Source: Seiridium cupressi
Lineage: Eukaryota > Ascomycota > Sordariomycetes > Amphisphaeriales > Sporocadaceae
Length of the DNA: 64,000 nucleotides
Direction of reading: 5' to 3'
NCBI GenBank assembly: GCA_036674765.1
Contig: JARVKI010000041.1
Span: 248,001 to 312,000 of the forward strand
Positions 48,457 to 55,729 of this stretch are shown here, piece after piece. The translations under genes and the position numbers were made by a program. The notes beneath the pieces are model-generated. The model was not told the DNA's origin, ran no database searches, and saw only the letters and a program-made list of their open reading frames with translations. How positions within the stretch are numbered: the stretch's first letter is position 1; every line of letters starts with the position of its first letter.

Positions 48457-49168
48457 ATGGTCGAGACAGACAAGAGTACGGGGAAGGTCGAGGAGAGCTC
48501 CCATGACATTGAAGAGAGTACGGAAGAACTGCCCGAGAATGACGAAGAGTATGGAGAAGACAGTGGCGATGATGCCGTGGCCGGAAAGGAGCATGGGGGA
48601 AGTGAGAGTGAGGGCGGGGATAAATTTGAAGCAGATGACGAGGACAAAGACGAGGAGTGAAACGACAAAACCGATGATGAAGCGCAATATGAACATGATG
48701 GAAAGGAGGAAGACGGAGGGGCCGAGGACGCTGGCAGTGACCAAGATGGCGAGGAGGAGCAGTCCAACCAGGATGAGGATGACGAGCAGAAAGGAGCCAA
48801 ACGCGAGCCCACACCAAACTCCCAGTCTGGTTCTTTGAAGAAGCAGAGGACTAGCAAGTTTTCCAATATCGATACCTCCGAGCCCAATGGTGCAGCCGCC
48901 GAGGGCAAGGTGGGCACGAAACACGATGAACCGCGGGACCCCAAGTCACGGGGCTCGGCTAATCGTCTGCCTAAGAAGGGCCAACAGGTTCACTAGAAAG
49001 CGCTGCTGGGATACGTAGATGGAAAGGTGGTCGAGATTATTGACTGGAAATCAAAAGGTTGAAGGGAAAAACGTCAAGGCTACCGCTGAGGATCCCAGTA
49101 TTGTACTGGAGAGCAACAAGAGTGGGAAGATATGCGTGCATAAGCCCGAAGCTGTATATTTTGACTAA
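48457..49168 (+). pseudogene. Decayed TUDOR-type (DUF2945/Hva1) protein gene
   Basis: A continuous acidic Asp/Glu/Lys-rich frame starts at the ATG at 48457. It is interrupted by TGA at 48658-48660 and by TAG at 48994-48996, yet stays protein-like between and after them. Just after the TAG comes KALLGYVDGKVVEII, and one frame over (a one-base shift near an A run at about 49052-49056) the end reads KVEGKNVKATAEDPSIVLE, SGKICVHKPEAVYF and a stop at 49166-49168. Known relatives carry a Trp where the TAG stands (TGG to TAG is one G-to-A change), an inner-strand V-D-G-x-V-V-E and a terminal GKxxVHKPEAVYF. So this is a nearly complete DUF2945 (Hva1 TUDOR) gene with two nonsense changes and one frameshift. 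The family probably has a chromatin- or nucleic-acid-related fold; its function is unclear. The hydrophobic frames on the opposite strand are shadows of the acidic region. Confidence 0.72.
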
Positions 49169-49874: not shown

Positions 49875-50312
49875 TCATTTCTTCTTGTCAGTGGCATCGC
49901 CTTCGCTGTCAGTAAGGAGCGTCGAAGCCCAGTAGAGTGGGGTGTCTCGTTTTTTCTCATCCTTCTCTCCGTCAGTGAGAAGGGTGGAAGCCCAGTAGAG
50001 CGGAGTATCTCGTTTCTCCTTGACAGCAGCATCATCTGCGCCATCGGTCAGAAGCGTTGAAGCCCAGTAGAGCGGAATGTCTCGTTTCTTCTTATCATCC
50101 TTGCCGTCAGCGAGAAGGGTGGAAGCCCAATAGAGCTCCGCACGCTCCTTGATAGAGGCAGGGTCGATTGAGCCCTCCGCGCCACCCTGATCCATTGTTA
50201 GCAACGGGGAAGGGGGTTCTGGTGTCAGTGAGTAGCTCACGGTAACAGGGGCAGCTATTCCAAGGGCAGAGCAAAAGCTCAAGATGACAGTGACAGCTGA
50301 CTTGGCAATCAT
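49875..50312 (-). CDS. Kex2-processed repeat precursor of a putative dikaritin-type RiPP
   Basis: Small secretory precursor, 145 residues, one exon. A signal peptide (1-21, MIAKSAVTVILSFCSALGIAA) is followed by a Pro/Ser/Gly-rich leader (22-57). Four repeats follow with the core LYWASTLL at 60-67, 81-88, 105-112 and 126-133, spaced 21, 24 and 21 residues. Each core is followed by an acidic stretch (A/T-D-G/S...) and basic sites: KKKR at 74-77, KEKR at 98-101, KKR at 120-122; the first core is preceded by KER and the last followed by KKK. Cores 2-4 begin D-I/T-P after the Lys-Arg. Kex2 cleavage would release near-identical peptides, as in UstA, PhomA and related precursors. There is no Cys in the repeats, unlike most alpha-type pheromones of filamentous ascomycetes. 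A UstYa-type gene lies 2 kb away on the same strand. The product and its activity are unknown; some members of this class are mycotoxins. Confidence 0.85.
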   Translation of the reverse strand: MIAKSAVTVILSFCSALGIAAPVTVSYSLTPEPPSPLLTMDQGGAEGSIDPASIKERAELYWASTLLADGKDDKKKRDIPLYWASTLLTDGADDAAVKEKRDTPLYWASTLLTDGEKDEKKRDTPLYWASTLLTDSEGDATDKKK

Positions 50313-52318
50313 GATAGCGATTTATGACTTGGTAGTGTCAAGAAGGCTTTAGGCAGTTAAAAAGTGGCAATTCTGATGGCAATGGCAAGTGACTAGAAAT
50401 GAGGTGCTCTGTAGTCCAAGTCAAGCACAGGAATTGATAAGATTGAGGAAGGTTTTTATAATATTCTACGGAGCATACAGAGGCTCTACATAGATGGAGT
50501 ATCGCCTGCTGAACCACGAGCCTCTGGCTGAGAGGGCTCACGGAACCGGCATACCCTCTCCTTACTCGGCGATGTGATTGTCGCTTTCCAATGTGCTCAT
50601 CAACGGTGGCTTACGCTACATTGCACGCAAGCAGGAGCAAACATCCCGTTCAGCACACCGCCGTAGATGTTGCCCCTTCACCATGCAGATACAATGGGTT
50701 GTCTTAGACTGGTCGGCTTTCTGCTTTTGACTTCTTGCATGAAGCCTAGAAGTCCAATCACAGCGCTCCTAAGCACGTATCGAGTCTCCATCACATAATC
50801 TAAGCAGCCAGAACGGACTATGTCGCCTTACAAAAATACTTTGCATTTTCTGTGGCACTAGTCAAGTCGATCACAAGATCAATGATTAATTAGCAAATAA
50901 CTAAGTCATAATCTACTGAGAAACAATGCTGTCTGTCCATCAAGCCGTAGCCTTCGAGCCCGATGTCAACGATTGCCACATAGGAATTACAATAAGGCTT
51001 AGATAGTACAACAGATCGCAGCCAGTGGAATGCAGAGATCATGAAATTTTGTGTGGAGCACGCTAAATACTTCCCGTGTTAAGAATCAGGTCATCTCTCC
51101 GTAGTTATTCTAACTAGTGTATAAGCCTATGAAACGCTAGATTATGAGACATGATTGACTCTTGATTAGTATTAAGACAGTATCATGACAATTGTGGGAA
51201 CTGTGGTCGCGTATAACGGTCCGGTGCAAGTCCACGTTGTATGGCTCCTTGAACTAATTCAACAGAAATACCTTGCAGATTGATCGCGGCCGAAATAGAG
51301 GCTTGATTTCCTGCAGGACCGGGCAACCTAGCATCGAATCCTGACGCCTCAGATTCCTATTGGCCCATGCCCGAAAGCACTTCATCACGCATATGGCCAG
51401 CCAAGCGGGCGCGTGGATAGCCTGTGCTGGCCGGCCATGAAGCGGAAGCCAGCTGGAGCTAATCGGATTTATTTTTAGAGATTTGGGGATACAGTTCGAC
51501 AACGAAGACTTCAGCTGGATTTAGCAGCTTCTACCTCTACAGATGTTGAAGGCAGTCTTCTGTTGTATGCTCTTAATGCATACGATCACTTCATATGATC
51601 GACTACTTCTTCGATCCTTTTCCAGATTTTCCGCTGATTTTCCGACGATTACGCCCAAAGCGCTGAAGTGTGGTCCACATTGTTCGGCCGTGTACTAGGT
51701 GGTGTCACTTTATTGCGCAATGTTTGCTCTGAATCAGTGAGTGGGCCGAGTATTCGGAGCTTGAAAAGCGGACCGGTGCAACTTTATACAATTCAGACCC
51801 GAAGGGGTTGAGGGTCGGGGAACTCTGGCTGACACAAGCTGATGACAGGCCCAAGCAAGTTGCTTCTTCTAAGCAAACAATCTGATTTCGGTGGACATCA
51901 GCGAGGATGTTAGTGGAGCTCATTGAGCACATCTTGCGGTGATCGAATGTCCGAGAGATGCCCTGGGCTGGAAAATGGCACGGGTACGTGGACGTCGCTG
52001 AAACCACCCGTATGCACGGTATTTCTGCAAAACCATGCTTTTCCATGCCAAGTCTTGTATCACCGTCAATTTACCGGGCATAATTGCCAACTAGTGCTAG
52101 TGCATTGAATAAGCGCTGATTGGGTACCACTAGTCTGGATATACTACGATTGGGTGTGTCAGTGTACTATGATAGCCTTGCTGGCAGAAAAGCATTGTCG
52201 TGCAAACACAATGGACATGGATGCAAGTTGCAATTTTCAATTCGTATCACAACAAAAGTTCGGACCCACTATACACATCCAAGAGGCAAAGCGCCGCATG
52301 CTAGCAAAAGGGTCTGCT
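50313..52318. other. Two-kilobase gap between precursor and UstYa genes
   Basis: Nothing recognised. Frames up to 113 codons (51705-52046, minus) do not resemble tailoring enzymes. It holds the promoter of the precursor gene and the 3' flank of the UstYa gene; a tRNA or another cluster gene is not seen. Confidence 0.45.
50454..50460 (-). promoter_or_regulatory. TATA-box candidate of the precursor-peptide gene
   Basis: TATAAAA on the minus strand, about 140 bases before the ATG at 50312. Confidence 0.45.
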
Positions 52319-53525
52319 TCACAATATGTGGTCATCATCCTGGTCACCCCCACTCAGATGATTCGGGTTCTCCTCTCCAAACAGCTCATAATACCGATCT
52401 GGAGCTGGTAACTGCGTGACCCCTTTGGGTTTAGACATGACTTTCTTGTACTTGTCCATGTCTAGTGAGACCTGCTTCCTGAACTCGGTCAGGCCGTCAA
52501 AATCGATGCACTGGCGGTTGATACTCATATCTGGCCAGGGCAGGTCCTGCGTTTCTACCCCTAGTGGAAAGGGAAAGACAAATATGTTAGCTTCTTACTT
52601 CCATCGTCAAATAGTAGACTCCCGCCGCTTCCAATACAGCCAGCTTCTTCGAGTGACGCGTTGATTCCGCCGACAGAAGATACCAGAGTACTGGCTACCT
52701 TGAAAGTGCAAAGAATACTGTACTTACAATGCAAGGTCATCAGATTAACGTTGCCACTGCATTGGATAGCCTGGAAGAGAATGTCTGCGCAGTGGTTGAT
52801 ATGCATTTCGCGCAACTTGAGTGTATGCGCTCGACCTTGGGAGACGTTGTAGTAGTTACCATAGGCGATCTTGCGAAGGCTGTTTAGACAGTGAAGCTGG
52901 TGGTAAACATCAAAAACTGCACCGTATGCGTTGTCACCCAGGCCCCAAATATGGTCTTCGAGCTTGATGGCGGTATCGGGATCTTTTCCAAGCTTTACGA
53001 TAGTCTCTTTGGTGACTGGCATGACACGGAGTAGCTCGTATTCCCACCAGAGCTCATCGGCCTCGTCATTCGGCTGGTGGCGCGCGATTGAGGGACTTCT
53101 GGGTGGGAACAGCGTGCCGTTAATCGTCGCTACATGCGGCTGCAAATCAACCATATCGTGTATAGGAGCTGTTGTTTTACATCAGTGGATGATCGGGGGA
53201 TGGTGCTGTTGGCCTGGTCGTTTTATGGCGACTTGAGTTTTCGGAAGGACTTACACCAAGAAGATGTTCGTCTCAGATCAGGGTTCAGGGTTTTGGATTG
53301 ATGAGAGGGACCAACAGATATTGTTAAGAAAATAAGCGAAGTGACGAGAATGAGACAGTTGATGGCCGTGAGTATGAAATACCACCGAACGGATCTTGGT
53401 GTGCGCTCATCTGACTGCGTCGGTAACAAGGTCTCCGTTTCGATGTCAGGTTCGGTGCCAGGGAGCGTCGACGTCTCCATGGACCCCCTGATGAGCGAGT
53501 ACTTGGACTCAGATACGTGATCCAT
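52319..53525 (-). CDS. UstYa-family (DUF3328) oxidase, putative RiPP cyclase
   Basis: Membrane-anchored protein of 317 residues. Exons (minus strand): 53255-53525, 52728-53168, 52319-52560; introns of 86 and 167 bases with GTAAGT donors. An N-terminal cytosolic tail leads to one membrane helix (about 48-70) and a lumenal domain. The two HxxHC motifs that define the family are present: HQLHC at 180-184 and HINHC at 213-217, 28 residues apart. The end carries LMTLHW across the last junction and PWPDMSINRQCIDFDGLTEF, also usual for UstYa proteins. In the ustiloxin, asperipin and related pathways such proteins oxidatively link side chains of Kex2-released peptides; acting on the precursor at 49875-50312 is an inference from proximity. 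N-glycosylation sites (NGT, NVS) lie in the lumenal part. Confidence 0.9.
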
Positions 53526-54282: not shown

Positions 54283-55729
54283 CTAAGCAAAAAACCTGTT
54301 TCCTGGCCGTCTGAGTCCCAAATGATCCCTGAGTGTCTGGCCATCATAATCCTTCCTGAAAATGCCCCTCTTCTGCAACTCGGGAACTAGCCGTTCAGCT
54401 ACATCATCTAACCCCTGGGGTAGATAGGGAAAGACGACATTGAAGCCGTCCGAGCCCTCCTCCATGAGCCACCTTTCCATCTCATCTGCGACGGTCTCGA
54501 CCGTTCCCACGAAAGCAAGACCAGAATATCCTCCGTAGCGCTGAGCCAACTGTCGCACCGTCAACCCCTCTGCTGCTGCAAGTTTCAGCACACCCTCTCG
54601 AACTGACTTGCTTGCGTTTGTCTCGGGGATGTCCGTCGGTAAAGGAGCGTCTGGGTCGAACTTCGATGCATCTGTGCCTAGCGAGATCGACAGAGACGCG
54701 ATGGAGCTATCGTAACTGACTAGACTATCTAGTTTCAACCTTTTCGCCTGTGCGTCTTCTGCAGTATCCCCAATGACTACGAACGCTGCGGGGAGCAATT
54801 TGATCTGCCCGGGATCTCTGCCCGCGGCTTTCGCTCTGGACTTGACGTCGGCGTAGAACGCCTTGCCTGCCTCCAGATCCTTGGGCGCACAAAACACAAC
54901 CTCAGAGGTTTCCGCCGCCAGTTGTCTTCCGGGCTCTGACTGCCCAGCCTGAACAATTACGGGCCAGCCCTCTGTGTCAAATTGGGATTAGTCATTGCTA
55001 TTACGGCAAATCATCCCGGTCCTGCAACGGGGTATATTGCAAGAACAAGCCAGACGATGTACGACAGGTGCCAAGAAATTACCCACGCGGCGGTCGTGCG
55101 ATATTCAACGGACCTCTAACCTGAAGGTCAGGGCCTTTATGGTCTAGCACGTGTATCCGCTCAGGATCAACGTATATGCCACTCTCTAGGTCCCGGATGA
55201 ATGCATCATCTGCGAAGCTATCCCACAGCCCCGTGACGACATCGTAGAACTCACGGGCGCGAGCGTATCGCTCCCCATGCTCCGCATGCTCATCGAGACC
55301 AAAGTTCCGCGCCGCATCTGGGTTGGCCGTAGTGACAATGTTCCAGCCTGCCCTGCCACCGGAGATGTGATCCAGGCTAGCAAATCTTCTAGCAATATGG
55401 TATGGTTGATCATATGTTGTGGAAGCAGTGGCGACCAACCCGATCTTACTTGTCACGGCTGCCAGTGCAGAGAGCAGCGTGAACGGCTCGAAGGATGTCA
55501 CGGTGTGGCTGCGCTTAAGTGCCTCTACTGGCATGTTGAGAACTGCCAGGTGGTCCGCCATGAAGAAGGCGTCGAATTTGGCGGCTTCTAGTTTCTGTGC
55601 GAACGAGACTATGTGGCCGAAGTTGAAGTTGGCATCCGGGTATGAGCCTGGATATCGCCAAGCGCCCGTGTGCAGGCTCACAGGCCGCATGAAAGCGCCG
55701 AGGTGGAGCTGTTTCTTCTTTTCAGCCAT
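54283..55729 (-). CDS. Luciferase-like flavin-dependent monooxygenase (NtaA/SnaA/DszA type)
   Basis: FMNH2-dependent monooxygenase with a TIM-barrel luciferase-like fold, 443 residues. Exons (minus strand): 55087-55729 and 54283-54971; 115-base intron with a GTGGGT donor. The junction restores RPPQGWPVIVQAGQSEPGR, a conserved segment of the family. The start at 55729 gives the typical beginning MAEKKKQLHLGAFMRP; a further in-frame ATG at 55840 would add 37 residues. Visible motifs: FDAFFMADHLA, TSKIGLVATASTTYDQPYHIARRFASLDH, SGGRAGWNIVTT and the C-terminal GTVETVADEMERW...GFNVVFPYLP. Bacterial and fungal relatives oxidise nitrilotriacetate, sulfur heterocycles or alkanesulfonates with a separate reductase. 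It is next to the UstYa gene on the same strand, but the class is common in catabolic settings, so membership in the RiPP locus is open. Confidence 0.88.

Follow-up and report, generated by a model that had tools for sequence, protein, structure and literature searches.

The closest described relatives of the locus reported here are fungal repeat precursors processed by Kex2 (KEPs), in particular those encoded near a gene of the UstYa (DUF3328) family. In the Umemura 2020 survey, a DUF3328 gene accompanies 1758 of the 7878 KEPs (22%) no more than 15 genes away, and on average 3.09 genes away, and the average number of KEPs per Ascomycota strain is 5.25 (PMC7329392). Tyr is found in the repeats of 65.6% of the DUF3328-linked KEPs versus 38.2% of the others, and Trp in 20.5% versus 24.5% (PMC7329392). 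The survey counted proteins with a SignalP-4.1 signal peptide and three or more tandem repeats, each 8 aa or longer, set between KR, KK, RK, or RR, none of them over 100 aa. Le Marquer 2019 required that in silico cutting at KR or RR split a protein into four or more fragments.

The ustiloxin and phomopsin systems combine such a precursor with UstYa proteins from 2 or 5 genes (PMC7329392), a tyrosinase (UstQ or PhomQ), an S41 peptidase, a methyltransferase, and a PhomR-like zinc-finger regulator, and their core has the form E-D-Y-x-I (PMC6339444). Asperipin-2a is made from the repeat precursor AprA, with the core FYYTGY, in a cluster described with a reductase and a transporter and with no tyrosinase. 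The pathway cannot do without its sole UstYa homologue, AprY, the proposed ring maker (PMC6514808). UstYa-family proteins can act by ether linking, hydroxylation, or chlorination, and some are found in non-RiPP pathways (PMC12048977). Further sources on such systems are PMC9233826 and PMC7099791.

We analyzed a 64,000-nucleotide stretch of Seiridium cupressi DNA (the window). It contains a precursor gene with four copies of the octapeptide LYWASTLL and, 2.0 kb from it and in the same orientation, a UstYa gene with both HxxHC motifs, the marker of the ust-RiPS type. By eye, copies 2, 3, and 4 lie between KKKR, KR, KKR, and a terminal KKK, which makes three repeats as the Umemura 2020 survey counts them, and the three KR sites yield four fragments by the rule of Le Marquer 2019. 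We regard the gene as a sound candidate for a RiPP precursor with an undescribed core, and as one more member of a well-populated, known kind. LYWASTLL is new as a core sequence, not as a kind of system.

Like the DUF3328-linked KEPs, the precursor has a signal-peptide-like start, at least three repeats of at least 8 aa, a UstYa gene nearby, and Tyr in the repeat (PMC7329392). It differs from them in its core; within the length limits of two protein-database searches, LYWASTLL was found in no other protein, though it may be listed among the supplementary KEPs of the survey. With asperipin-2a it shares a repeat precursor, a single UstYa-type enzyme, and the lack of a tyrosinase, but an NtaA/DmoA-type FMN monooxygenase stands here in place of the reductase, and there was no transporter among the 20 ORFs scanned. 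The precursor architecture and the UstYa protein are common to ustiloxin and phomopsin as well. However, the window has one UstYa gene, neither a tyrosinase nor an S41 peptidase was matched on the contig, and the D-I/T-P-LYWASTLL-T-D repeats lack E-D-Y-x-I. The epichloecyclin precursor GigA likewise has four repeats with KR sites and Tyr in the core. Its core is a different one.

As read from its sequence, the locus is not a strict dikaritin locus and resembles the minimal asperipin layout. A preliminary description of this DNA had taken the Kex2-repeat layout as defining the dikaritins. That layout is present, but it is not dikaritin specific: the survey found 7878 such proteins, 22% of them DUF3328 linked (PMC7329392).

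The LYWASTLL precursor and selection on its core

The precursor gene is a single exon of 145 aa on the minus strand (49875..50312), recognized from the ORF list, Tandem Repeats Finder, and repeat analysis. The preliminary description had placed a four-repeat ORF exactly there, with no strand given, and all four core copies are exact. They begin at aa 60 (50112..50135), aa 81 (50049..50072), aa 105 (49977..50000), and aa 126 (49914..49937), with a spacing of 21, 24, and 21 aa. Tandem Repeats Finder independently found the array at 49903-50136, with a period of 63 and a score of 212. Kex2-type sites separate the copies: KKKR between the first and second (aa 74-77, 50082..50093), KR between the second and third (aa 100-101, 50010..50015), and KKR between the third and fourth (aa 120-122, 49947..49955). 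The protein ends in KKK just before the stop (aa 143-145, 49878..49886). A TATAAA on the same strand (50455..50460), 148 bases ahead of the precursor's start codon, is a possible promoter element by its match to the consensus.

Averaged over 13 residues, Kyte-Doolittle hydropathy has its maximum of 2.27 from residue 9 and is at most 0.60 in all averages starting past residue 25. This lone strong hydrophobic stretch suggests that aa 1-20 (50253..50312, minus strand) serve as a signal peptide, probably cleaved near LGIA/APV. Of the signal peptide named in the preliminary description, the sequence shows the hydrophobic N-terminal stretch; the signal peptide itself and its cleavage place are predicted.

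Copy 1 differs from the others in its surroundings. It is preceded by KER-AE, which is not dibasic, and its tail is ADG instead of TDG. Ahead of the core, D-I-P is found in one copy and D-T-P in two copies. Because there is no dibasic site in front of copy 1, Kex2 would leave that copy on the leader and free copies 2 to 4. Lys-Arg sites between the copies and a predicted release of D-I/T-P-LYWASTLL-T-D had both been claimed earlier. The claims hold for the three sites and for the repeats of copies 2 to 4, but not for copy 1, which has no KR in front and ends in ADG. The computed [M+H]+ values of possible products are 1495.7315 (linear), 1493.7158 (-2H), and 1491.7002 (-4H) for DTPLYWASTLLTD; 1279.6569, 1277.6412, and 1275.6256, in the same order, for PLYWASTLLTD; and 966.5295, 964.5138, and 962.4982 for LYWASTLL.

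The spacers between the cores vary in length and sequence, unlike the octapeptide. Over the eight core codons, summed over the 6 copy pairs, there are 20 synonymous and 0 non-synonymous differences (pS 0.52, pN 0). Among them, 8 codons deviate from the commonest one; random re-drawing of these 8 made all of them synonymous in about 5e-5 of trials, and in 8.5e-5 with a transition bias of 3. A stretch widened to positions -1 to +10 gave 31.5 synonymous and 12.5 non-synonymous differences. Because the core codon differences are all synonymous, we conclude that LYWASTLL is under selection: the silent sites have diverged among the copies, and the octapeptide is the part kept by selection.

The adjoining UstYa gene and its surroundings

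The UstYa gene (52319..53525, minus strand; PF11807/DUF3328, profile match 1e-28) encodes 317 aa in three exons (53525-53255, 53168-52728, and 52560-52319), with GT-AG splice sites picked by eye. The gene model is supported by a Seiridium cardinale protein (P0002) that has the same length and exon junctions and is 96% identical. Identity to an S. cupressi protein that seemingly retains the second intron is 87% by BLAST and 98% over the multiple alignment. The UstYa protein has one N-terminal hydrophobic (membrane) stretch, and both HxxHC motifs are intact, HQLHC at aa 180 and HINHC at aa 213. Across 45 aligned homologues, H180, H183, C184, H216, and C217 never vary, and at least 90% keep H213. 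A protein-database search gave 150 homologues, many of them, among the matches listed, from named fungi. Orthologues in Pestalotiopsis fici, Neopestalotiopsis clavispora, and Neoarthrinium moseri are 66 to 68% identical. For the fold predicted for the S. cardinale orthologue (pLDDT 84.7), Foldseek gave no significant match to a solved structure, and the protein has no sequence relative in the PDB.

Precursor and UstYa gene are co-directional; 2,006 bases separate the start codon of the precursor from the stop codon of UstYa, and this is the one UstYa gene in the 64-kb window. In the genome assembly (45.4 Mb in 228 contigs), 42 exon-level matches were grouped by hand into 30 UstYa loci; with that grouping, the chance that some UstYa locus falls 2,007 bases or less from a given place is p ~0.003.

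The next gene upstream of UstYa, on the same strand (54283..55729, exons 55729-55087 and 54971-54283), encodes a luciferase-like FMN-dependent monooxygenase of 443 aa of the NtaA/DmoA family (TIGR03860, 8.6e-165). Its position makes it a possible but unproven candidate tailoring enzyme. On the far side of the precursor from UstYa lies a GRDP-like gene. The upstream regions of all three genes share no common word of 8 to 10 bases. Among the 20 window ORFs scanned, a subset from which intron-split genes may escape, there was no methyltransferase. Contig C41, of which the window spans 248001-312000, has no tyrosinase or S41 peptidase match; genome-wide there are 51 exon-level tyrosinase matches among the best candidates scored and 3 S41 matches. 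A Kex2-type P-domain has one match in the genome, on C53. Elsewhere in the window are a piece of a fungal, bacteriorhodopsin-like opsin gene (PF01036; 25910-26647, minus strand) and, at 48457-48996 on the plus strand, very acidic, low-complexity ORFs with runs of D and E.

Relatives of the precursor and readings of the locus

The precursor was searched against about 5.8 billion proteins at E values up to 10. The first search, which admitted proteins of about 80 to 254 aa, yielded, from 373 scored candidates, nothing beyond the cluster of the precursor itself, with 2 sequences on 2 contigs. A lengthened query, which admitted proteins of about 156 to 495 aa, found no relative among the 7998 candidates sharing most words; that search could not return the 145-aa precursor itself and had no built-in positive control. 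Within the length limits of both searches, no other database protein contains LYWASTLL, and the precursor matched only itself in its own genome. The database comparison called for in the preliminary description thus gave no relative beyond the precursor's own cluster, and the core is undescribed. Fungal proteins are well represented in the database, since the UstYa search returned many from named fungi. However, short precursors are often unannotated, and the lack of database relatives is therefore not proof of absence. The protein database yielded no precursor relative to go with the UstYa orthologues of Pestalotiopsis, Neopestalotiopsis, and Neoarthrinium, so the pairing is perhaps not conserved, or the precursors are unannotated or fast evolving.

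In a literature text search that lay outside supplementary KEP tables, LYWASTLL and YWASTLL were absent among the matches listed. Matches to the shorter strings LYWAS and YWAST, judged by their titles, nearly all look like chance letter runs. There was no RiPP report for Seiridium among the matches listed, and no Trp-linked UstYa peptide among those judged by titles and abstract starts.

We think it likely that the gene encodes a precursor from which a small ribosomal peptide of the UstYa (DUF3328) kind, probably modified, is made. The precursor would enter the secretory pathway by its signal peptide, and Kex2 would cut after KKKR, KR, and KKR, to give three repeats, each of them D-I/T-P-LYWASTLL-T-D with an acidic tail. 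The membrane-bound UstYa protein from the adjoining gene may then oxidize the core Tyr, Trp, or both, most likely with ring formation, before peptidases trim the acidic flanks. The FMN monooxygenase might conceivably add a further oxidation, as its position hints. Action of UstYa on this peptide, by oxidative chemistry at Tyr or Trp, is predicted. In favor of this overall reading are the repeat layout with its dibasic sites, the selection on the core, the nearby co-directional UstYa gene with both motifs and the low odds of such proximity by chance, the other KEPs beside UstYa genes in this genome, the Kex2-type P-domain, and the core Tyr, the residue enriched in DUF3328-linked KEPs. The core Trp gives no support, because Trp is no commoner in those KEPs. 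One UstYa protein can be enough, since AprY alone serves asperipin-2a. Counted against the modified-peptide reading are the related genera with a UstYa orthologue and no detected precursor, the lack of a tyrosinase or S41 peptidase match on the contig, the lack of a common promoter word, and the service of UstYa proteins in non-RiPP pathways as well (PMC12048977).

It is somewhat unlikely that the product is instead a linear, unmodified secreted peptide, a signal or effector-like KEP cut by Kex2 alone, with the UstYa gene serving something else. KEPs without a DUF3328 gene among their 15 closest genes are common (6120 of 7878; PMC7329392), UstYa proteins act in non-RiPP pathways too (PMC12048977), and the UstYa orthologue occurs in related genera where a precursor was not detected. 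Yet chance would bring one of the 30 UstYa loci this near in only about 0.3% of cases, further KEPs in the genome adjoin UstYa genes, and Tyr, present in this core, is the residue enriched in DUF3328-linked KEPs (PMC7329392). A secreted surface-active or structural repeat protein, with the repeats as its material, is very improbable; Kex2 is known to cut the repeats of one protein of that sort, Ustilago maydis Rep1 (PMC7329392), but here there are just four short copies in 145 aa, the octapeptide is strictly conserved amid looser spacers, and a UstYa gene adjoins the precursor.

An alpha-type mating pheromone precursor was already disfavored and is hardly credible. The core of ascomycete alpha-pheromones has the pattern W-C-x3-G-Q-x-C, which the repeats lack, as they lack any Cys, and neither MF_alpha nor another Pfam family matched the precursor above the cut-off. 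The homology to an alpha-pheromone that the preliminary description had set against its own proposal was accordingly not seen. Pheromone precursors also have a signal peptide, repeats, and Kex2 sites, but KR is followed here by DI or DT rather than by the XA or XP dipeptides of Ste13 (PMC6339444), and nearly all pheromone-annotated KEPs in the survey have no DUF3328 neighbor (PMC7329392). The genome's true pheromone gene was not found; a pattern search gave 3 places, none of which, on inspection, holds a secreted, pheromone-like ORF with repeats.

With the UstYa-modified peptide as the preferred reading, the reactions known for the family (ether links, hydroxylation, and chlorination) are varied, so that the exact chemistry is not readable from the sequence. 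A more specific proposal, that the single UstYa protein with FMN monooxygenase tailoring builds a new ring in LYWASTLL, between the adjacent Tyr and Trp or from Trp to a Leu, Ser, or Thr side chain, is rather doubtful. If it were true, the product would be a tryptophan-linked UstYa peptide scaffold from a cypress-canker genus. Should the locus yield a product at all, its core with adjacent Tyr and Trp would join the few UstYa-type peptides of known chemistry, and the small two- or three-gene system would suit study of the UstYa reaction, which is poorly understood. Seiridium, the genus of cypress canker (PMC8217882), would thereby gain a peptide product.

Other repeat precursors beside UstYa genes

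As a class, the locus is ordinary, with several like it in the same genome. We examined 12 of the 30 UstYa loci, namely, this one and 11 others in 200 kb, the latter mostly high-ranking matches rather than a random sample. At least 3 of the 12, and perhaps 5, have an adjoining KEP, 0.8 to 2.4 kb from the nearest UstYa exon match. A strict scan for at least three copies separated by dibasic sites, over 328,663 bases in 41 partly overlapping stretches, gave three KEPs (this one and those on C19 and C14) and one false positive, a transcription-factor-like ORF of 965 aa in the window. In the 200 kb, a permissive two-copy scan also flagged candidates on C67 and C10, along with a match antisense to the C67 candidate that is an echo of its repeats. 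The permissive scan gave 0 matches in the window outside the locus and 0 in 33 kb of other loci. On the reversed letters of the 200 kb it gave 5 matches, two of them echoes of the C14 and C19 repeats; therefore, the C67 and C10 candidates rest on inspection as well as on the scan. Synonymous to non-synonymous differences between copies are 11:4 for C19, 24:0 for C14, 5:2 for C67, and 6:4 for C10, ratios that are no fair test of selection because these copies were chosen by matching peptide strings.

The C19 KEP (G000:C19:126572-127054, plus strand) has a signal-peptide-like start and three copies ending in IIIKS(S/T)DTY-KR, and it lies 1.2 kb from a UstYa match. The C14 KEP (G000:C14:580890-581126, plus strand) has three PGAWNAVVITSSAE copies split by KR, 1.9 kb from a UstYa match; by eye, there is an apparent signal-peptide-like exon upstream, across an intron. 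The compact C67 candidate (G000:C67:226909-227226, minus strand) has a signal-peptide-like start and two GFLGEEEIWNSGKYVDSK copies with KKR between them. The stretch around it has four UstYa matches, and it lies 0.8 kb from one of them. The C10 candidate (G000:C10:651361-651498, minus strand), with two copies SPDEVDF/NPDEVDF..VGDTY and KR between them, sits between two UstYa matches, 1.0 kb from one of them, and by eye a decayed extra copy seems to follow its stop.
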